Shown: positions 1,282 through 55,692 of the stretch, piece by piece
Numbering within the stretch: the stretch's first letter is position 1
Layout of the letters: every line of letters begins with the position of its first letter
NCBI GenBank assembly: GCA_947494565.1
Contig: CANLVG010000008.1
Coordinates: 62,001-126,000 of the forward strand
DNA: 64,000 bases
Direction of reading: 5' to 3'
Source of the DNA: an uncultured Flavobacteriaceae bacterium
GTDB taxonomy: Bacteria; Bacteroidota; Bacteroidia; Flavobacteriales; Flavobacteriaceae
Program-made: the position numbers and the translations under genes
Notes under the pieces: generated by a model
Database searches by the model: none
Told to the model about the DNA's origin: nothing
What the model saw: only the letters and a program-made list of their open reading frames with translations

Positions 1282-2226
1282 CTAATAGGTACATCTACAA
1301 TTACTGATTCCTTGAAATAGGTCGACACCGAGTGTAAGTACGTGTGTACCGGTACTATACCCCAGCAGCTCGTTCAGGATGACCTGGTAAGAGTATCCGA
1401 AATAAAAATTGTTCTTCTTCAACCCGATAATGGGTGCCACATAAAGGGGATCTCCGATTTGATCGTTCAAAAAGCGATAGGTAAAACCGGCATAATAATA
1501 GTCCTCAAAATCATACCATCTGAACTTGACGTTTAAATCGGTCACGGACCGACCGTCGCTTTCGAAAAGTTGGAAAAATACAGACGGTTCGATTTCCAAA
1601 TTACTATTTCTGTTCTTTTTATACCGGTAACCCGTATATACATAGTAGTTTCTCAACCGATTTGGCTCAAAAACAGGATTGAACTTCGTCAAATCCTTGT
1701 TGATCAGATTCGAGGCATTCCCACTGAAATAAAACTTGTCCCACCGATATAGAAAACCCACGTCAAAATTATGGTTCGTAGTTGCACGGTCGTCGGTAAC
1801 GCTCGGGTCCAATGCATCGAAGTTTTCAATGTCGATACGAAATTGATTGAAGTTATAAGATAGTCCGAACGAAAGAAATTTATCGTCATAGCGATCAATG
1901 GTCAAGTGATGCGCAAAAGAAATACGTGCACCACGTTGTTTGGTTTCTCCATTACTATCATTGTACAAGAGTGTTCCAAGACCTGATTGTTCCCCTATAC
2001 GCATATCGGCCGCCAATGACTGGGTGTCCGGCGCATCTTTGATTCCCACCCATTGTGTAAGTCCGTTGATTCGAATTTTCACATGATCACCAATACCTGC
2101 ATAAGTCGGAGACATCACAAATGGATTGTCCGCCAAATATTGTGATAGTTGGGGTATGGTCAATTCTTGTCCTTTTGATATAAAGGAGACTAAAATGAGA
2201 AGTAGGACTAATACTTTGTTACGCAT
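1282..2226 (-). CDS. sprF: PorP/SprF-family T9SS outer-membrane protein (SprF-like)
   Basis: A 314-residue protein with a cleavable signal peptide (about residues 1-19) and the alternating, aromatic-rich beta-strand pattern of the PorP/SprF family, which are outer-membrane partners of cell-surface proteins carrying type B T9SS C-terminal domains. The family hallmark is visible early: an N-terminal stretch around residues 22-45 with SQYLADNPFVMSPTYAG, then about a dozen amphipathic strands ending near the C-terminus. The gene begins 20 bp after the stop of the giant adhesin and follows it in the same direction, which is the sprB-sprF order of F. johnsoniae, where SprF is needed to deliver SprB to the surface. 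The specific name is by context and family; many PorP/SprF paralogues exist in these genomes. Confidence 0.82.
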   Translation of the reverse strand: MRNKVLVLLLILVSFISKGQELTIPQLSQYLADNPFVMSPTYAGIGDHVKIRINGLTQWVGIKDAPDTQSLAADMRIGEQSGLGTLLYNDSNGETKQRGARISFAHHLTIDRYDDKFLSFGLSYNFNQFRIDIENFDALDPSVTDDRATTNHNFDVGFLYRWDKFYFSGNASNLINKDLTKFNPVFEPNRLRNYYVYTGYRYKKNRNSNLEIEPSVFFQLFESDGRSVTDLNVKFRWYDFEDYYYAGFTYRFLNDQIGDPLYVAPIIGLKKNNFYFGYSYQVILNELLGYSTGTHVLTLGVDLFQGISNCRCTY

Positions 2227-19643: not shown

Positions 19644-19748
19644 TTGGTCGGCAAGTTTGATTAAGTCAAGTCCTCAGTGTTCCACTTGGAATTTTATACA
19701 CTATGTGGTATGGCATAGCGTACGCTAAAAACGAGACGGTATTACTAA

Positions 19749-19754
19749 CAAATA
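19749..19754 (-). promoter_or_regulatory. Candidate -7 element for sprB-like gene
   Basis: TATTTG on the minus strand (context AATATTTGTT, 7 of 8 to TAnnTTTG), about 105 bp before the ATG, exactly 30 bp downstream of the proximal TGTTGT repeat. The same hexamer and spacing recur before the sprC-like gene. Confidence 0.5.
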
Positions 19755-19784
19755 TTGTCCTTTAAGACGAAGGCCGGAATTTAT

Positions 19785-19816
19785 TGTTGTATCATGGTGG
19801 GATAATGTTGTGAAAG
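19785..19816 (-). promoter_or_regulatory. Paired 21-bp-spaced TGTTGT element upstream of sprB-like gene
   Basis: TGTTGTATC at 19785 and TGTTGTGAA at 19806 (plus-strand reading) form a direct repeat with start-to-start spacing of 21 bp, two helical turns. This is the geometry of LytTR-family operators (9-bp direct repeats, about 12-bp spacer, central GTT). The element is also found at 25525 and 45463. Binding protein is inferred, not shown. Confidence 0.55.
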
Positions 19817-20798: not shown

Positions 20799-23093
20799 TT
20801 AAGCAATCGCCTCTGACCTCACTCTCATTATCCACATCTTATCATCGTAGGCATCGTTCAATTTCGAGTAATAGGATATCAACGCATTGTTCCAAGATTC
20901 ATGTCGTTTCAGATAGACATACCTCCAGTTATTTTCGGGGTTGATGAAGTAACTCGCGCTAAGCCCGTATGAGTTTAATAATTTTACAAACCGATTGGCA
21001 TTATTGGGATTGGCGAAAACATTCGCAATAATATAGTATCCTTGGCCAATACCGTCTATTTTGTAAACACGTGATTTTAGATCACTCCTAGTGATTTTAT
21101 CGCGTTCAACAACTTTCGGCTCCAAGACATCGGTACTGTATTTCGATGATTTCTGCTGAAGCTTATCGACATTGCTCGCATAACGTTCATTGGTATAGCG
21201 GTTGTCAACGTTCATGATCCATAAATCATCGGTATAGGACCCGTTCATATTGCTTTTGTAGGCTGTTGCTGCTTCGCTCCAGGTATCATAGCGCTCTAGG
21301 TATACGTATTTTAGGCCGTTGTTCGGGTTGTCGATAAAGTCTGAATTAAACCCTTTTCGGTTTAGGGAAGTCATGAACTTATCCATGTACTTGCCCCCTT
21401 TATAGACGTTGGCGACTACATAATATCCATCAGTAACCCCTTCGAGGTTTTTGAATTTTCTACTTTTGATGACATCCCTGTTGGCTGCATTTATATAATC
21501 AGAAGACTGCGTATTGTCTTGAGCTGCGATGGCAGTTGTTGTATTGGAAGGGTCGGAAGATTGAATGGCACTTCTCCTTTGGGTCGGAAGTACCTTCTTC
21601 TCACGGGCACTTGCCACACTGTTAGGAACATCTTTGGTGTTTGTTTTATCTTGGACTACTGCGGTAGCGGTTCTTGTCGGGCGTGAATTCACTGTGTTGA
21701 CCGCGTCTTGTTGCACCGTGGATTTTTGATTTTCACGAGCCGTAGTGGCGGCAACGCTATTTTCCTGGTTTTCGGAGGTATAGTCGCTCGCGTTCGTTCT
21801 ATCGGTAGCGCGGGTGTTGCTTACAACATTGTTTTGTGTATTTTTCCCGGTTTTGAATAGGTCCTCCGCTCTTTTTTCCAAATCGGGTCGTGTTCCTTTT
21901 GTTTCGTTCCGGACCATACGCATGACCATTTCAAATCGGCGCTCAAGGTCATTTTGTCGATTGGCTTCCAAAGAATCTTGACGGAACATCAATTCGGCCA
22001 ATACCTCTTCGTTTTCGGCAAGTTTTCTTTTCAGTTCTTCCAACTCTTCATTGGCGGCCAATGCATCCACTTGCAATTCATTGTTTTCTGCAAGCTCATC
22101 TTCTGCTTCGAGCATCACACGATCTTCGGTCAAGTTCGGCGTAAACGAGTACGCAAAGGAAATCTCATGGGTAAGACCAAGATTGTTGAAATCCGTGCCG
22201 AAACCTTTTTCCATTGTATAACCTAATGACATTCTACGGTTGATGTTGAATCCGGCACCCGCGGATGCACCATAGAAGGTATCATAACCGCCTTGAAGCC
22301 ATCCCAGTTTTGGCAGGTCAAGAATCAAACTGCCTCCTAAGGAATAGTCGTTACTTTCATCTGTAATGGATTGATTCAAGGTGTTCAGCCGTACTCTGGC
22401 AAGCGGCATCAATCGTGCGCTTTCAAGCACACCATCCGCATTTTTAAACTGATGGGTATATTGTAAGTGAGCCGAATAGGTCTTATCTGAAAATTCAGTA
22501 AGTGTCTCACTGGTCTTTAAATTGTAATCAAAAAGGTTTTCGGCAAATACACCAAAATCAAATTGCCCATACGATAAATTGAATCCAGGTTGAAACGATA
22601 GAATATTGCTGTCTTCCGTACCGTTCAATCTAAAATCGTTCGGGTCGATAACGTCGACATCATTCCTATTCAGCCCGGTACTGTAGTAGGCAAGATTTCC
22701 ACCAAAAGTAAAGTTACTTTTATCACTTAGCTTGATGCCGTATGCGTAGTTGGCCAAGACCCCGATGTTCTGTACGGGTCCTAAACGTTGCGTATATAAG
22801 CTAAGACCAAGGCCACTTCGATCACCCATTCGACCACTATAACTCAAAAAGTAGGTTTGGTCGTTATCTTGAAATTGTACCGATTGGTTTCTGTGTAGAA
22901 GGTTAATGTATGATTTATCTTCACGAACAGTCGTAAAGGTTGGGTTTATCAAAAATCGATTAAACTTCAACAGGTTTTGTGGAGCAACCCGATATGGCAA
23001 AATAGGATCATCTTCTTGCGCATTGAGCACGCTGACCATGGTCAATGAAGAGAAGGCTATTAGGGACAATGCGAAGAGGTTTCTTAGTTTCAT
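20799..23093 (-). CDS. sprD: SprD-like protein: PorP/SprF barrel plus coiled coil and two SPOR-like domains
   Basis: A 764-residue envelope protein. It starts with a signal peptide (about 1-25, ending LNAQ), followed by a PorP/SprF-type beta-barrel domain (about 30-310). Then come a charged coiled coil (about 320-395, runs such as LEELKRKLAENEEVLAEL), a Thr/Asn/Ser-rich linker (about 400-540), and two related SPOR-like modules (about 545-625 and 670-760), each with GYYxxANVxxxxx and a Y(V)YLxRxxxWxxA pattern ending in D(D/K)xWIMxV. The same module opens the OmpA-family protein at 45617-48142. It lies 12 bp after the sprC-like gene and so is probably co-transcribed. Position between sprC- and sprB-like genes matches sprD; the exact role of the fused SPOR-like modules (possibly peptidoglycan or partner binding) is inference. 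Confidence 0.7.
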   Translation of the reverse strand: MKLRNLFALSLIAFSSLTMVSVLNAQEDDPILPYRVAPQNLLKFNRFLINPTFTTVREDKSYINLLHRNQSVQFQDNDQTYFLSYSGRMGDRSGLGLSLYTQRLGPVQNIGVLANYAYGIKLSDKSNFTFGGNLAYYSTGLNRNDVDVIDPNDFRLNGTEDSNILSFQPGFNLSYGQFDFGVFAENLFDYNLKTSETLTEFSDKTYSAHLQYTHQFKNADGVLESARLMPLARVRLNTLNQSITDESNDYSLGGSLILDLPKLGWLQGGYDTFYGASAGAGFNINRRMSLGYTMEKGFGTDFNNLGLTHEISFAYSFTPNLTEDRVMLEAEDELAENNELQVDALAANEELEELKRKLAENEEVLAELMFRQDSLEANRQNDLERRFEMVMRMVRNETKGTRPDLEKRAEDLFKTGKNTQNNVVSNTRATDRTNASDYTSENQENSVAATTARENQKSTVQQDAVNTVNSRPTRTATAVVQDKTNTKDVPNSVASAREKKVLPTQRRSAIQSSDPSNTTTAIAAQDNTQSSDYINAANRDVIKSRKFKNLEGVTDGYYVVANVYKGGKYMDKFMTSLNRKGFNSDFIDNPNNGLKYVYLERYDTWSEAATAYKSNMNGSYTDDLWIMNVDNRYTNERYASNVDKLQQKSSKYSTDVLEPKVVERDKITRSDLKSRVYKIDGIGQGYYIIANVFANPNNANRFVKLLNSYGLSASYFINPENNWRYVYLKRHESWNNALISYYSKLNDAYDDKMWIMRVRSEAIA

Positions 23094-23105: not shown

Positions 23106-25358
23106 TTATCGAATAACGGTAATAGTTCCTTGTTTTAGGGTTTCGTTGGCATCTTTAATGACGTAATAAAACACCATATTTTGTTTTATGAAGGTCATTG
23201 TTGAACCGGGCCAATTGTTCTGATAATTCGTTTGATTATATAGCTCTTCACCGTTGGTATTGTAAATAGTAACGGTGACATCGTTCTTGTTGGAGTAGGA
23301 ATTAGGAATCACCCATTGATCGTTAGCACCATCTCCATTGGGAGTGATTACATTAGGAACATTGAACAAATCCAAATAGCTTGCCCGAATGGTTCGTGAT
23401 ACCTCACAATTGTCTACGGTGGCTATGAGTAGAAAATCACCTTCTTCCGTAAAGGTCATTGTCTCGTCACTACTGACCAATGTATTTGCGCTATCGAACC
23501 ATTGATATGAGGTTCCACCACTTGCCCGTACGGTTTGTGAACTACCCTCAGGGAAAATGACATCGCCATCCACATCAAAGGAGATGAGATCTGAATCCAA
23601 TGGGGTAATCGCAATCTCGTTTGAAACGAGGTCACAGCCATTTCTGTCTAGTACCAAACGGTATGTTCCTGATTCTGTAACGGTGAGACCTGTATCCGAA
23701 GTATTCACGGTGGTTGCATCGCGTTCCCATCTGAACGTTTCAGCACTCAGGTCAGTAGTGGTACTAATCGTAATTGCATCGGAAGAATTACAATAGACGG
23801 TACTCGTACTGCTGATGGTCAGGGTTTCATTGGTTAACAGTTGAACGGCTAACGCGTTCGAAGTTTCATTATAGGTGTTGATGGAAGCGTTGACTTGGTA
23901 ATCCCCATTTTCCGAGGTATCGGTCAAACTGATATTTTGAGAGGTAGCTCCGGTAACATCCGCACCATCTTTTTGCCATTGGTACGTAAATGAAGATTCT
24001 AATTGACTAGTTACATCAATGGTACTCCCATCGTTCGTTACGGCATTTATGGTCACCACCTGTAGCACTACATCCGTGTTTACACAAGAGTTATAGGTTC
24101 CATTATAATCTGCAATAATTTCAAAGGAAGCAGGAACGACTGCCACTGTATTCTCCGAGTTTCGAACTGTACCCGGGCAAGTACCTCCTGATTGGGTCAC
24201 TTCTACGAAGTAGGTGCCTGCTTGGGTAATATCAAGTGTACTTCCGGTAGCACCTCCAATAGCACCTCCATTTCTAAACCATTGATAGGTTGGGGATACC
24301 GCATTGGTCGTGACACGCAATGTTTCTGGACTAGAAGGCAAAATGACAATGTTCGACGGGTTGTCGCGGGTAACTGTAAAGTTGTCCGCATTGGTGATCG
24401 TTACCGGGTTCGAGCGTTGGGTACAAATACCAGGAGCAGAAATTTCGACTTGGTAATCCCCTTCAAAACCGACGATACTGGCATCGACGATATAGCTTGT
24501 GGTGATGGCGCCTGTGATGGCGTTGTTGTCTTTATACCATTGGTAACTCCAAGTAGGATCTGTGGTATCTATAGTCAATGTTTCAGTATCTCCTGCACAC
24601 AAGGCCGTATTGCTTGGCGGGCTGATGCCTACACCTGGACCAGTTGATCCGATGGTCGCGGTGACAATATTTGAATCGGTATTACCAGAACCCGTACAGA
24701 GGTCGCCGTAATAAATGACCGCTTGATACATACCCGACTGGGTCACGTTCAAGGTGTGCCCTGTTTCCGACGTCAGTTCCGTACCGCTTCGGTACCAGAT
24801 GTATTGGTAGGTTTCAGGGTTTGGAATATTATCGACTTGCAGTGTAATCGATGTTGCGCTACAAACACTACCTGGGGGATTTCCATCGCCCAATTCGCTA
24901 ATGTTAAGGTTTGTGGTAACATCCATGTAATACATCGGATAAGAGTTGTCGGATTCTCTCTCCATTGCCGGACTTGTACTTCGAGCCCGTATCTTGTAGC
25001 CGTCACCCCTAGCGTTAGTAGGGATGGAGAATTCCATATCGAACTCTTTGGGGTTGTTGGTATTCTGGTCATCTGCCCGGCCCAGTTCAACGGCATTGGT
25101 AAAATCGCCATTGGCATCTGAAAGCTCTAAGATGAATTCGTTGTCGGCATTTGCCGTACCCGCCCAACTGATTCTGGCGTAGTATTGGTTGAACCCTCCA
25201 ACACCTGCGCAAATACCGGCATTCCATGGCGAATTACCTGCCAAATTGGGGTTATCCGCTGGTTCAGGGGGTTGAACCAAAAGCTGTGAAAAGGCTTGTG
25301 TAACAATCAAAAAGAAAGCCGTCGTGATGAAAAAGCGAGTTAGTGATGTGTGTCTCAT
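23106..25358 (-). CDS. sprC: SprC-like secreted protein with type B T9SS C-terminal domain
   Basis: The open frame extends to 25430, but the ATG at 25358 begins the recognisable signal peptide (MRHTSLTRFFITTAFF...AFSQ), so I choose it; the product is then 750 residues. After the signal come several Ig-like/PKD-like modules, each containing a tryptophan core such as YQWYKDN, YQWFRNG, YQWQKDG or YQWFDSA, preceded by a Cys-containing strand. The last about 90 residues form a gliding-motility-associated sorting domain with NVITPNGDGANDQW. This indicates export by T9SS to the cell surface. First gene of the apparent sprC-sprD-sprB-sprF locus, with its own paired-repeat element upstream. In F. johnsoniae, SprC and SprD support SprB function. 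The gene name rests on architecture and order. Confidence 0.72.
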   Translation of the reverse strand: MRHTSLTRFFITTAFFLIVTQAFSQLLVQPPEPADNPNLAGNSPWNAGICAGVGGFNQYYARISWAGTANADNEFILELSDANGDFTNAVELGRADDQNTNNPKEFDMEFSIPTNARGDGYKIRARSTSPAMERESDNSYPMYYMDVTTNLNISELGDGNPPGSVCSATSITLQVDNIPNPETYQYIWYRSGTELTSETGHTLNVTQSGMYQAVIYYGDLCTGSGNTDSNIVTATIGSTGPGVGISPPSNTALCAGDTETLTIDTTDPTWSYQWYKDNNAITGAITTSYIVDASIVGFEGDYQVEISAPGICTQRSNPVTITNADNFTVTRDNPSNIVILPSSPETLRVTTNAVSPTYQWFRNGGAIGGATGSTLDITQAGTYFVEVTQSGGTCPGTVRNSENTVAVVPASFEIIADYNGTYNSCVNTDVVLQVVTINAVTNDGSTIDVTSQLESSFTYQWQKDGADVTGATSQNISLTDTSENGDYQVNASINTYNETSNALAVQLLTNETLTISSTSTVYCNSSDAITISTTTDLSAETFRWERDATTVNTSDTGLTVTESGTYRLVLDRNGCDLVSNEIAITPLDSDLISFDVDGDVIFPEGSSQTVRASGGTSYQWFDSANTLVSSDETMTFTEEGDFLLIATVDNCEVSRTIRASYLDLFNVPNVITPNGDGANDQWVIPNSYSNKNDVTVTIYNTNGEELYNQTNYQNNWPGSTMTFIKQNMVFYYVIKDANETLKQGTITVIR

Positions 25359-25488
25359 AAGTAGTTGTAGTTTTTGGGTCACTACAGTTCTATTTTGGAT
25401 TTGGGTCCTGATAAAACAATAGGCGTTCATATTAATTTGCGGGTATCGCCCATTTCCGCTCTCGTCTTACTTTAATCTATATTCAAAA

Positions 25489-25494
25489 CAAATA
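25489..25494 (-). promoter_or_regulatory. Candidate -7 element for sprC-like gene
   Basis: TATTTG on the minus strand (context CATATTTGTT, 7 of 8 to TAnnTTTG), about 130 bp upstream of the chosen ATG and exactly 30 bp from the proximal TGTTGT repeat, as at the sprB-like gene. Confidence 0.5.
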
Positions 25495-25524
25495 TGTCTT
25501 TTTAATGCCGGACGGGGAATTTAA

Positions 25525-25556
25525 TGTTGTATCGGGAAGGGATTTTGTTGTGAAAC
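25525..25556 (-). promoter_or_regulatory. Paired 21-bp-spaced TGTTGT element upstream of sprC-like gene
   Basis: TGTTGTATC at 25525 and TGTTGTGAAAC at 25546 (plus-strand reading), start-to-start 21 bp. Similarity to the sprB upstream element extends beyond the repeats: both carry GGAATTTA just before the first repeat, a GCCGGA a little further away, and AACAAATAT around the -7 hexamer. Confidence 0.55.
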
Positions 25557-45151: not shown

Positions 45152-45180
45152 AAAAAAAGCACCTTATTAAGGTGCTTTAA
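45152..45180 (-). terminator. Terminator after small membrane-protein gene copy 2
   Basis: AAAGCACCTT pairs with AAGGTGCTTT around a short AT loop; on the minus strand it is followed by a T-run. Confidence 0.85.
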
Positions 45181-45204: not shown

Positions 45205-45375
45205 TTAATCAAAGGCAAAGCCAGTGATAAGTCTAAAAACGAATGCGTAAAGTACAATCAAGAAACTGGCGAAGCAGAACCATGAGAATATTTTAAAATA
45301 TGACTTTACGAATTTGTGGCCTAGGTTTCTAAAGGCCTCTAGATAGATTTCTTTGATAAGTAGTACGTTTTTCAT
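45205..45375 (-). CDS. Small single-span membrane protein, copy 2 (DUF6747-like)
   Basis: A 56-residue minus-strand protein starting at ATG 45375, with IKEIYLEAFRNLGHK at the N-terminus, YFKIFSWFCFASFLIV across the membrane and LYAFVFRLITGFAF at the end. It is the sister of 44760-44927, 277 bp away in the same direction. Each gene is a separate unit: this one has its own terminator downstream and a paired TGTTGT element (45463-45494) about 90 bp upstream, the same element found before the sprC- and sprB-like genes. Conservation of the two copies at nearly every hydrophobic and charged position supports real coding. Function unknown. Confidence 0.8.
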   Translation of the reverse strand: MKNVLLIKEIYLEAFRNLGHKFVKSYFKIFSWFCFASFLIVLYAFVFRLITGFAFD

Positions 45376-45462: not shown

Positions 45463-45494
45463 TGTTGTCAAGTGGTGACGTAGTGTTGTGAAAC
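45463..45494 (-). promoter_or_regulatory. Paired 21-bp-spaced TGTTGT element upstream of small membrane gene
   Basis: TGTTGTCAA at 45463 and TGTTGTGAAAC at 45484 (plus-strand reading), start-to-start 21 bp, same orientation relative to the downstream gene as at sprC- and sprB-like genes. At the equivalent 30-bp distance the sequence is ATTTTC rather than TATTTG. Confidence 0.5.
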
Positions 45495-52992: not shown

Positions 52993-54678
52993 ATGAGCAA
53001 AAACACGACAACCACCCGAGCTCAAGAATCGACCAACGCTATCGAGCGTTTGTATATTACGATGCGGCATTTGTTTAACCGGGGGTTCTACAAACCTACG
53101 GGCGTATCTGGCGAATCGTTGAAAAATGCGCTGTTACAACTTAGGCCTGAGATCTATGGAACCATTGCGGAAGAAAAAACAGAACTAAACGGACTTGTTT
53201 ATGTTCTCGAGCGTTTGCCACAAGGTATTGAACAATGCAAGTACATCAACCTCACTTCCGACGAAGGGTATGGCAAATCACACATCGATCCGATCGTACC
53301 GCCTAAGCGGCGAAGAAACTGTTATCGAATCGATGAGGAACAAATGAATATTGAGATTACCCGTGGACGCTCCGATATTTATGACATCCTGACCCATTTG
53401 ACCTTTCTTTTTATAGAATCGCAAAAAATCTGCGAGCGTGTGCTGATAGAAGAAACCCAAAAAACGATTCGAGACTGGCAGAAGTTGGAGGCCGCCGTGA
53501 ACGCTAAAGAGCTTTCTCAGGCAAATCGTGAAACCACTTTGATCCATACAGCGAATATTCTGGGCCGTAGTTTCGAGGAAACCATGGTTTATTATGAGAA
53601 ATTTGCGACCGCTGAGAATCCCGAACGTTTTCTGGAAATCATCTATTGGTTGGGGAAACTGGCCATCGAAGAAGAATTGACCGATGAAAAAAGAGTCATC
53701 ACCTTTAGCACATTGCTAAGAGAACGCTTAGGGCATCATATTCATGGAGACCGTTGGGCCAATACGATCAAGAAGGTTTTTAAGGATCGGGGCTTGCTAA
53801 ATAGGCCGATTCATATCGTAAGTGCGAATATGCACAGTGTGATGAATTCCCTCTTTGCCAGAAAGGCACTGAAAAAGCAGTTTCCAAAGGGCGAAGCGCT
53901 CAAGATTTATGAGGCTTTGAGTGCATCCGGCAGTTCCGATTTGCGCAATAAGGTGGAGACCATGGCCAAAAAGAACGGGATGATTTCCATCGACGATGTC
54001 TCGGGTACGAATATCGATGTTCAAATATTCGATTTAGCGAAGTTGGGCGACGATGCCTGTTGCTATGAATTTTCGAAGGAGATAACCGAAGTACAAAAAC
54101 CTGTTATCTTTGTGATGGACTATGCTTTTGGCGAGCAGGCCTACGAAAGTATCGATGAATTATTGAAACCCTATGATGACCAGAAAAATGGAGCGATCTA
54201 TTTGAACATTGCTTCTATTTCGATTATGGGAAAGGCAGGTATTTTAGAAGGTGGAAAGGGAGATTTGATGATACCCTCGGCGCATATTTTTGAAGGTACG
54301 GCAGACAACTACCCTTTTCAGAACGAATTATGTGCGGCTGATTTTGAAGGGCATGGGCTAAAGGTCTTCGAAGGAACCATGGTTACCGTATTGGGGACGT
54401 CTTTGCAGAACAAGGACATTTTGAAATTCTTTCATCAGTCTACTTGGAATGTAATCGGCCTCGAAATGGAAGGCGTACATTATCAGAAGGCGATTCAATC
54501 GGCTTCTAAAATTAGAAAAAGTATCGGTGAAGATGTAAAAGTCAGATATGCCTACTACGCTTCGGACAACCCCCTGGAAACGGGGAGCACGCTAGCTTCG
54601 GGAGGCCTTGGCACTACAGGTGTTAAACCGACTTACTTGATAACCGATAAAATTCTAACCCAAATATTCAATTCATAA
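52993..54678 (+). CDS. DUF6909-like conserved protein with phosphorylase-like C-terminal half
   Basis: A 561-residue cytoplasmic protein that I recall as a conserved flavobacterial family (DUF6909; name from memory). The N-terminal half (about 1-275) is helical and includes YINLTSDEGYGKSHI (about 82-96) and RRNCYRIDEEQMNIEITRGR (about 107-126). The C-terminal half (about 275-561) resembles the nucleoside phosphorylase/AMP nucleosidase fold in places: VIFVMDYAFGEQA (about 373-385), GKAGILEGGKGDLMIP (about 414-429), an IGLEMEGVHYQKA segment (about 492-504) like the EME/DME nucleoside-binding motif, and YYASDNPLETGS (about 517-528). Function inferred only. It ends 3 bp before the Wzz-like gene, so it probably belongs to the same transcript. 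Confidence 0.7.
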   Translation: MSKNTTTTRAQESTNAIERLYITMRHLFNRGFYKPTGVSGESLKNALLQLRPEIYGTIAEEKTELNGLVYVLERLPQGIEQCKYINLTSDEGYGKSHIDPIVPPKRRRNCYRIDEEQMNIEITRGRSDIYDILTHLTFLFIESQKICERVLIEETQKTIRDWQKLEAAVNAKELSQANRETTLIHTANILGRSFEETMVYYEKFATAENPERFLEIIYWLGKLAIEEELTDEKRVITFSTLLRERLGHHIHGDRWANTIKKVFKDRGLLNRPIHIVSANMHSVMNSLFARKALKKQFPKGEALKIYEALSASGSSDLRNKVETMAKKNGMISIDDVSGTNIDVQIFDLAKLGDDACCYEFSKEITEVQKPVIFVMDYAFGEQAYESIDELLKPYDDQKNGAIYLNIASISIMGKAGILEGGKGDLMIPSAHIFEGTADNYPFQNELCAADFEGHGLKVFEGTMVTVLGTSLQNKDILKFFHQSTWNVIGLEMEGVHYQKAIQSASKIRKSIGEDVKVRYAYYASDNPLETGSTLASGGLGTTGVKPTYLITDKILTQIFNS

Positions 54679-54681
54679 CAA

Positions 54682-55692
54682 ATGGCTGATCAGACACCAC
54701 AAAAAAGTCCAACCGCTTCAGACGAAATAGACTTGGGGCAACTCTTGGAACTGATTAACAAAGGAATCAAAAGCTTCGGCAATTTCTTTTTGAGGATCTT
54801 CATTTATCTGCGAAGAAATGCACTGAAATTATTAGGTCTGATACTTCTTGGTGTCGGCATTAGCTTTGGGTTAAATCAGATTATCTCCAAAAAATTGAAG
54901 ACCGATGTCATTGTCCGCCCCAATTTTGAGAGTAAGAACTATCTGTACGATGTAGTCGAGGAATTGGCTTCCAACATCAAGTCGAGGAATCAGGTCTTTT
55001 TCCAAGAATTCGATATAGCAACAGAGGATCTCGAAGGTTTCACGATAGAAGCGGCCGCTATTGAAGAAGAAGATGTGAAAACAGAGGAGGTCGTACTCAA
55101 CGAGATGAAGTACTTGGAAGTACTCGAAAATTTTAAAGATGAGAGTTTTGTAATCGATATTTTGCGATCTGAACTCTCTGAAAAGAGTGTAGTAAATCAC
55201 AAAATCACATTTACGTATAAGGACCCCACAAAAGGGCCTGCTATTGTAAAAAAACTCATGAACTATATCAACACCAATGAGTACTTCGATGAGTTAAAAA
55301 CCGTATATGCCGATAATGCCAAATCAAGAATCGAGAAAAACACGCTTTTGATCGATCAGATTGACGAATTGGTCGACAACTACTCAAAAGCCTTATTGAC
55401 CGAGAAACAGAAATCGGGTACGGGAGTGGTATATATGGAAAAGGAGAATACCTTGAACGTGCCCTCCCTCTTAACCCTAAAAGATAAGCTCTTAAAGGAG
55501 ATTGAAGACAAGCGCCTAGAAGTAGCACAACAGACAGGCGTACTGAGCATACTGAATTTTGGAAAGACACAAGAAGTGACCAAATCCTTTTTCAATCAGA
55601 CTTATTTTCTGATCCCAACAATACTAGTGGTTGGCTTTGTACTGCTTTCATTTTTTAAATATTTGGAGCGCAAAGCAAAAGAGATAGAGTAG
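54682..55692 (+). CDS. Wzz-like polysaccharide chain-length/co-polymerase protein
   Basis: A 336-residue inner-membrane protein with the two-helix topology of Wzz co-polymerases: helix 1 about 48-70 (LKLLGLILLGVGISFGLN), a large periplasmic coiled-coil region about 75-305, and helix 2 about 308-328 ending in a basic tail. The sequence just after helix 1 (SKKLKTDVIVRPNF) resembles the post-TM strand of the family. It probably controls length of the surface polysaccharide made by the downstream genes. Start ATG 54682 is 3 bp after the preceding stop, and its own stop is directly followed by the rfbB start. Confidence 0.77.
   Translation: MADQTPQKSPTASDEIDLGQLLELINKGIKSFGNFFLRIFIYLRRNALKLLGLILLGVGISFGLNQIISKKLKTDVIVRPNFESKNYLYDVVEELASNIKSRNQVFFQEFDIATEDLEGFTIEAAAIEEEDVKTEEVVLNEMKYLEVLENFKDESFVIDILRSELSEKSVVNHKITFTYKDPTKGPAIVKKLMNYINTNEYFDELKTVYADNAKSRIEKNTLLIDQIDELVDNYSKALLTEKQKSGTGVVYMEKENTLNVPSLLTLKDKLLKEIEDKRLEVAQQTGVLSILNFGKTQEVTKSFFNQTYFLIPTILVVGFVLLSFFKYLERKAKEIE

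Follow-up and report, generated by a model that had tools for sequence, protein, structure and literature searches.

To our knowledge, how the gliding adhesins of marine Flavobacteriaceae are switched on is largely unknown. Among LytTR regulators, for which the classical binding consensus reads [TA][AC][CA]GTTN[AG][TG], VirR of Clostridium perfringens has a regulatory RNA, VR-RNA, as a target. LytTR sites are described in the available part of PMC4847170 as repeats of 9-11 nt separated by spacers of 11-13 nt, with no common consensus, and the VirR direct repeats are named there in the title of a reference. In Staphylococcus aureus, both RNAIII and the operon encoding AgrA itself are driven by AgrA, which binds direct repeats near -60 (PMC4227749, partial text). 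On the RNA side, Bacteroides possess FopS, a 14-member sRNA family that is bound by RbpB and acts on SusC-like mRNAs (PMC11697453, partial text). For the gliding genes themselves, the remFG-sprCDBF operon of Flavobacterium psychrophilum has two promoters, SM4 (sigma-54) and SM5, which were predicted and tested by mutation (PMC9723704, partial text); the word LytTR is absent from the main text of that paper. Among the best-ranked matches of our open-access literature search, in which subscription papers are mostly absent, we found no description of the regulon reported below.

Here, we analysed a stretch of 64,000 nucleotides (the window, meaning this whole stretch) from the genome of an uncultured Flavobacteriaceae bacterium, hereafter the host. 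Its gliding-adhesin genes are arranged as sprC-sprD and sprB-sprF, all on the minus strand, their names being given by operon order and domains with no equivalog model behind them. We consider it very probable that the sites preceding these genes are operator-promoter modules of an activating LytTR two-component regulon. The genes and sites are the following:

1282-2226, minus strand: sprF-like gene, PorP/SprF family, 314 aa
2247-19643, minus strand: sprB-like giant adhesin ORF, 5,798 aa
19749-19756, minus strand: -7 element AATATTTG, at +58 to +65 from box 2
19785-19814, minus strand: regulator box 2, TTCACAACA-N12-GATACAACA, 5' of the sprB-like gene, read directly
20799-23093, minus strand: sprD-like gene, PorP/SprF domain plus a C-terminal part, 764 aa
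23106-25358, minus strand: sprC-like gene, T9SS type-B (CHU_C) surface protein, 750 aa from the likely start at 25358
25489-25496, minus strand: -7 promoter element CATATTTG, at +58 to +65 from the start of box 1
25525-25554, minus strand: regulator box 1, TTCACAACA-N12-GATACAACA, 5' of the sprC-like gene, read directly

The longest ORF call for sprC begins at 25430, 24 codons further upstream. This start is probably wrong and 25358 right, since a length of 750 aa fits the 748-786 aa of 20 orthologous ORFs and a similar leader ends before the ATG in many orthologues.

A preliminary description of this DNA had proposed a common operator-promoter module before the sprC-like and sprB-like genes, and direct reading of the sequence confirms it. 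On the plus strand both boxes read TGTTGTATC-N12-TGTTGTGAA, the two 9-mers starting 21 bp apart. The TATTTG hexamer said to lie exactly 30 bp from the box is indeed found at that distance in both copies, as CAAATA on the plus strand (25489-25494 and 19749-19754). Of the further conserved bits claimed to line up at matching distances, GGAATTTA (25516-25523 and 19776-19783) and AACAAATAT (25487-25495 and 19747-19755) keep the same distance to the box in both copies, but GCCGGA is out of register: the copy starting at 25507 is 18 bp from the box, the one starting at 19773 only 12 bp. The genome-wide pattern search that the same description had called for, run as exact TGTTGTATC-N10..30-TGTTGTGAA, returned two matches in the 5.39-Mb genome and none for the reversed control. 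With up to two mismatches, TTCACAACA-N14-YACAACA matched four times in the window against a mean of 0.05 and a maximum of 1 in 100 dinucleotide shuffles. A window match at 54672-54701 was set aside, as it has no -7 element and falls at a junction between genes. An inverted-repeat (CRP-like) reading was rejected because the half-sites are direct repeats. Counting against our model, the second half-site of the sprC and sprB boxes, GATACAACA, differs from TTCACAACA in its first three letters.

The box is not confined to the window. Three perfect TTCACAACA-N12-TTCACAACA sites occur in the host genome, together with nine boxes at no more than one mismatch (reversed control, 0) and 34 at no more than three (12 for the reversed pattern), and none of the 15 sites with at most two mismatches falls inside an open frame of more than 100 codons. 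Five of the three-mismatch matches (L067, L070, L074, L076 and L079) overlap long reading frames and could be chance matches. A scan of one genome per species recovered at least 118 stretches with the box, and the matches listed include Zobellia, Maribacter, Arenibacter, Muricauda/Allomuricauda, Eudoraea, Robiginitalea and Pricia, as well as the unrelated Nostoc and Lachnospiraceae. In the Nostoc locus (L236), TTCACAACA stands in 21-bp tandem repeats and is apparently unrelated; in five other cyanobacterial loci (L133, L137, L147, L181 and L195) the matches are 42 bp apart, which suggests tandem repeats of the same kind.

Boxes gathered without regard to what follows them reveal a fixed promoter register. 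For this analysis, 158 distinct Flavobacteriaceae sites were collected by the box alone (at most one mismatch), leaving out non-Flavobacteriaceae loci and five loci from genomes negative for the candidate regulator described below. At least four of the five TA..TTT letters stand at +58 in 117 of these sites, compared with a mean of 7.5 and a highest count of 32 (at +31) for the other offsets from +31 to +109. All five letters are present at +58 in 89/158, and at other offsets within 54-62 in at most 6. In the comparison set filed as non-Flavobacteriaceae, part of which consists of Flavobacteriaceae MAGs, the counts were 10/108 at +58 and 11 at +34, with a mean of 2.5. The element conforms to the TAnnTTTG -7 element of Sigma-A (Bacteroidota) promoters, the sprC and sprB sites sharing five of its six letters. 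The box and the -7 element are thus a promoter module. Taking the -7 element as -12 to -5, as placed in the available part of PMC9723704, the box spans about -70 to -41, and transcription is predicted to start near 25484 on the sprC side and near 19744 on the sprB side.

This geometry also bears on the direction of control, which cannot be read from sequence alone. The regulator might repress from the box, or the box might be constitutively bound by another protein, and we regard either as very unlikely: the box ends 28 bp 5' of the -7 element without overlapping it, its centre near -55 is close to the position of about -60 reported for activation by AgrA (PMC4227749, partial text), and by eye no TTG is seen near -33 in the two window promoters.

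The preliminary description had recommended looking for LytTR genes; the host contains 44 LytTR matches, and among the 30 loci checked for boxes only that of one candidate regulator has a box nearby (at most two mismatches, within about 1.5 kb). This gene, whose host copy lies at G000:C1:571639-572391, encodes a receiver and a LytTR domain (Pfam Response_reg, 8.4e-21; LytTR, 4.8e-18). The next gene encodes a kinase with TPR, HisKA_2 and HATPase domains (Pfam), and the host box sits between the two genes. The order regulator-box-kinase was seen by eye in two more genera, in one of them ending at a contig end, and an ORF of at least 120 aa follows the regulator in 29/30 loci, the kinase identity having been read in three genomes.

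Regulator orthologues with at least 56 percent identity are present in 58/299 genomes of the family; three further matches, at 39-44 percent identity, were left uncounted. The box, with at most one mismatch, is found in 58/58 regulator-positive genomes versus 10/241 others, and the reversed pattern in 14/299 genomes. Owing to the kinship among the 299 genomes these counts are not independent events, the Fisher value takes no account of that kinship, and a single ancestral gain may explain the co-occurrence. When 30 regulator loci were inspected, the gap or the 600 bp 3' of the gene held a box with at most two mismatches in 25/30 and with at most three in 29/30, compared with a best match of six mismatches in the matched stretch 5' of the gene. 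The single locus without a box (L249) counts against the model.

The earlier reading of the site as a LytTR-bound direct repeat in front of a -7 promoter is therefore supported by five results: 9-nt direct repeats with a 12-nt spacer, which match the published LytTR architecture (PMC4847170, partial text); a -7 element at one fixed offset; the co-occurrence of one LytTR regulator with the box; a box within 600 bp after that regulator in all but one locus; and the absence of a box with up to two mismatches near the other host LytTR loci examined. On the other hand, the half-site does not fit the classical LytTR consensus, which again counts against the model. Half-sites of AraC-family proteins can also be 21 bp apart. 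The 21-bp direct repeat is not unique to LytTR proteins, and co-occurrence in a single clade would fit other clade-specific regulators as well, so that the box might serve an activator of another type with the same distribution, for instance one of the AraC family. We consider this unlikely, given that the box directly follows the LytTR gene at nearly every locus and that, among the LytTR loci examined in the host, it lies near only this regulator. From its gene neighbourhood and distribution, this LytTR response regulator is the best candidate for binding the box.

Conservation in front of the adhesin genes follows the same division. A sprD-like match was found in 54/58 regulator-positive genomes, and 20 of these, from 18 genera, were examined with their upstream DNA. 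In each of the 20, a box starts 74-205 bp ahead of the called sprC-like start and is accompanied by a -7 element at +58 (CATATTTG or a near variant), and TTCACAACA-N14-YACAACA plus the -7 element adds up to one or two mismatches at these loci. Among regulator-negative genomes, 35/50 had a match and 20 were examined; the best totals were 6-8 mismatches, and none of the 20 loci, which belong to more distant operons that may not all include sprC, had a sprC-type promoter. Two of them showed a box-like match with two mismatches, without a -7 element.

At sprB, for which a match was found in 49 genomes, a box precedes 12 of the 30 loci examined. With a cut-off of 300 nt, chosen after seeing the data, a box is present in 12 of the 14 loci where no same-strand gene ends within that distance upstream of sprB and in 0 of the 16 where one does. 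Eleven of the 12 boxes are in register; the one in genome G160 is farther off and has a poorer -7 element. Our reading is that sprB carries its own copy of the box where it is detached from the preceding gene.

Since the two window sites lie only 5.7 kb apart in neighbouring operon parts and are alike beyond the box, they might also have arisen simply by recent duplication of a single adhesin promoter and say nothing about a regulator. This we reject as almost certainly wrong: the same box and register precede unrelated host genes and RNA-like units, and the box before sprC is conserved in 20 genomes of 18 genera.

A third box in the window precedes a small gene:

45205-45375, minus strand: DUF6747 protein, 56 aa, starting 117 nt after the start of box 3
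45463-45492, minus strand: regulator box 3, TTCACAACA-N12-TTGACAACA, 5' of the DUF6747 gene

The -7 element of box 3 is poor (CGATTTTC at +58 to +65, with fewer consensus letters than the sprC and sprB sites), and this counts against the model. An intrinsic-terminator-like hairpin lies 3' of the gene and ends near 45152. Nine of ten distinct DUF6747 copies stand behind boxes with zero or one mismatch, the tenth having none, and a 35-aa family (seven distinct loci) stands behind boxes without mismatches; these associations are not an independent test, because nearly all the loci were fetched by the box. DUF6747, an uncharacterised family, was named in no paper among the best-ranked matches, drawn from a longer list, of our open-access literature search. 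Other host targets are a leucine-rich-repeat protein (L058; a similar one at L065, by eye) and a malectin-domain protein, and sites with two or three mismatches precede an ECF sigma factor and surface-protein candidates. We considered the ECF factor (at L063) as SigP, an identity that is unsupported. A protein beginning with the pattern MENS.L.GRI is found behind the box in L139, L164 and L068, and its host copy (124 aa) has no Pfam match.

Short, terminated RNA-like units of at least three families likewise stand behind the box, and an intrinsic-terminator-like hairpin lies within 400 nt of 125/215 sites (at most two mismatches; the set includes some foreign loci, such as L236 and L247). Class I units measure 138-181 nt (21 sequences) and in some genomes follow one another in tandem at intervals of 215-430 bp; three to four box-plus-unit repeats are arrayed at G184:C3:620234-621194, G096:C1:265169-265861 and G129:C17:167757-168531 (L110, L111 and L117). 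Class II units, of 77-100 nt in 18/20 sequences with two called longer, carry a TTTTCATTTTCATATAGTGTTCTCG element that hardly varies, and 10/13 predicted pairs of their terminator show a change on both sides that keeps the pair. Class III units, of 66-78 nt (13 sequences), contain a CCCAAATCTTA-like element, and several come from the gap after the regulator gene. A fourth sRNA-like family of 122-125 nt (TTTTAAGTCATTTTAGTGTC...) was noticed behind perfect boxes in L196, L212, L226 and L241. None of the 20 loci searched reached an Rfam gathering score, and the Rfam search of the window returned only a tRNA.

The class II model gave matches in 55/299 genomes, namely 49/58 regulator-positive ones and 6/241 others, the latter six being weak (E-values 3.9e-6 to 5.6e-4). 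The class I model, based on sequence only, matched 38/58 regulator-positive genomes and 0/241 others. A box with at most three mismatches lies 40-170 nt upstream of 28/30 class I and 21/30 class II loci, and all 30 class II loci are within six mismatches, compared with five or more in matched control stretches. This test is only partly independent because the sequences used to train the models came from downstream of boxes.

The transcripts predicted from many of these boxes have an element in common with the sprC leader, a hairpin with a CCCAAA loop:

25367-25385, minus strand: leader hairpin GUAGU-GACCCAAAA-ACUAC, directly 5' of the likely sprC start codon
25398-25405, minus strand: CCCAAATC element in the sprC leader

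By eye, a GTAGT..CCCAAA..ACTAC-like pattern precedes the ATG in many orthologue leaders. The CCCAAATC element is the commonest 8-mer downstream of boxes (69/178 in sense, 0 antisense, 4 upstream) and occurs in 10/21 sprC leaders in sense and 0/21 antisense. In leaders (n=168), CCC-AAA is flanked by a stem of at least five pairs in 29.8 percent of cases. Shuffling the partners lowers this to 12.5 percent (19.6 at most in 200 shuffles), and 12 percent of the 1,585 copies found elsewhere have such a stem. There is moderate evidence, kept at that level because related copies were counted apart, that the CCCAAA element would form a hairpin whose loop is fixed while its stem varies.

These elements suggest a possible role for the RNAs. 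In class I and III units, at least one hairpin has (C)CCCAAA as its apical loop, class I also having CCTACTT near its end, and the sprC mRNA leader presents a CCCAAA hairpin followed by CTACTTATG. In a CsrB-like decoy a protein-binding loop is repeated and also found in target leaders, and CCCAAA hairpin loops are enriched here. The invariant element of class II is antisense to a start region reading AUGAAAAUGAAAA. We therefore put forward, as a tentative proposal that may well prove incorrect, that class I and III RNAs are decoys titrating a putative RNA-binding factor from leaders, and that class II RNAs act by pairing. Class I and III would then mimic the leaders of the sprC mRNA and other regulon mRNAs. 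If the CCCAAA hairpin is a recognition element, it would offer a route to its RNA-binding factor. Among the loci already collected, the complement of class II with at most three mismatches was found at six places outside the sRNA itself, versus two for the reversed pattern; no convincing antisense target emerged there because the closest match (L105) is from a genome without the regulator.

Considering all the above results, the original observation correctly caught part of a larger LytTR regulon, the earlier reading having missed that sRNA-like units, small proteins and the kinase gene also stand behind the same box. The computation established the box, its fixed register, its conservation, its co-occurrence and linkage with the regulator gene and the RNA-like anatomy of the downstream units; from these we infer binding, phosphorylation, activation as opposed to repression, and RNA function. 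The phosphorylated LytTR regulator would bind the two 9-nt direct repeats, 21 bp apart, as a head-to-tail dimer and recruit sigma-A RNA polymerase to the -7 promoter. Its partner would be the neighbouring TPR/HisKA_2 kinase, whose gene would be driven by the intergenic box, creating a feedback. The same box would turn on the sprC-D and sprB-F gliding-adhesin genes, further surface proteins, DUF6747 and the 35-aa family, as well as several families of short terminated RNAs with a probable post-transcriptional role in adjusting expression. For Zobellia, Maribacter, Arenibacter, Muricauda and their relatives, the analysis names a regulator gene and a testable list of targets and proposes an exact binding site, and it ties three or more sRNA-like families that lack an Rfam match (20 loci searched) to one proposed transcriptional controller.

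The proposed system resembles AgrA/RNAIII of S. aureus, where a LytTR regulator likewise acts through two direct repeats upstream of promoters and drives a regulatory RNA and small peptides together with the operon to which it belongs (PMC4227749, partial text). It differs in phylum, in having a TPR/HisKA_2 kinase gene as neighbour, with no AgrB-like gene seen by eye among the ORFs of at least 100 aa in the host locus, in its several multi-copy sRNA-like families, and in targets that include gliding adhesins. Similarly, VirR/VR-RNA of C. perfringens involves a LytTR regulator, imperfect direct repeats and a regulatory RNA target, whereas the host group, the repeat sequence and the target set are different. 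The decoy proposal would make class I and III a Bacteroidota counterpart of CsrB/CsrA, but under LytTR control. Compared by description, FopS are likewise paralogous Bacteroidota sRNAs with a single-stranded 5' part and an intrinsic terminator, for which the available part of PMC11697453 describes a promoter motif and no shared regulator box. Finally, the F. psychrophilum locus represents control of the same kind of gliding-adhesin operon, there through SM4 and SM5 (PMC9723704, partial text) and here through a LytTR-type box with a sigma-A-like -7 element.
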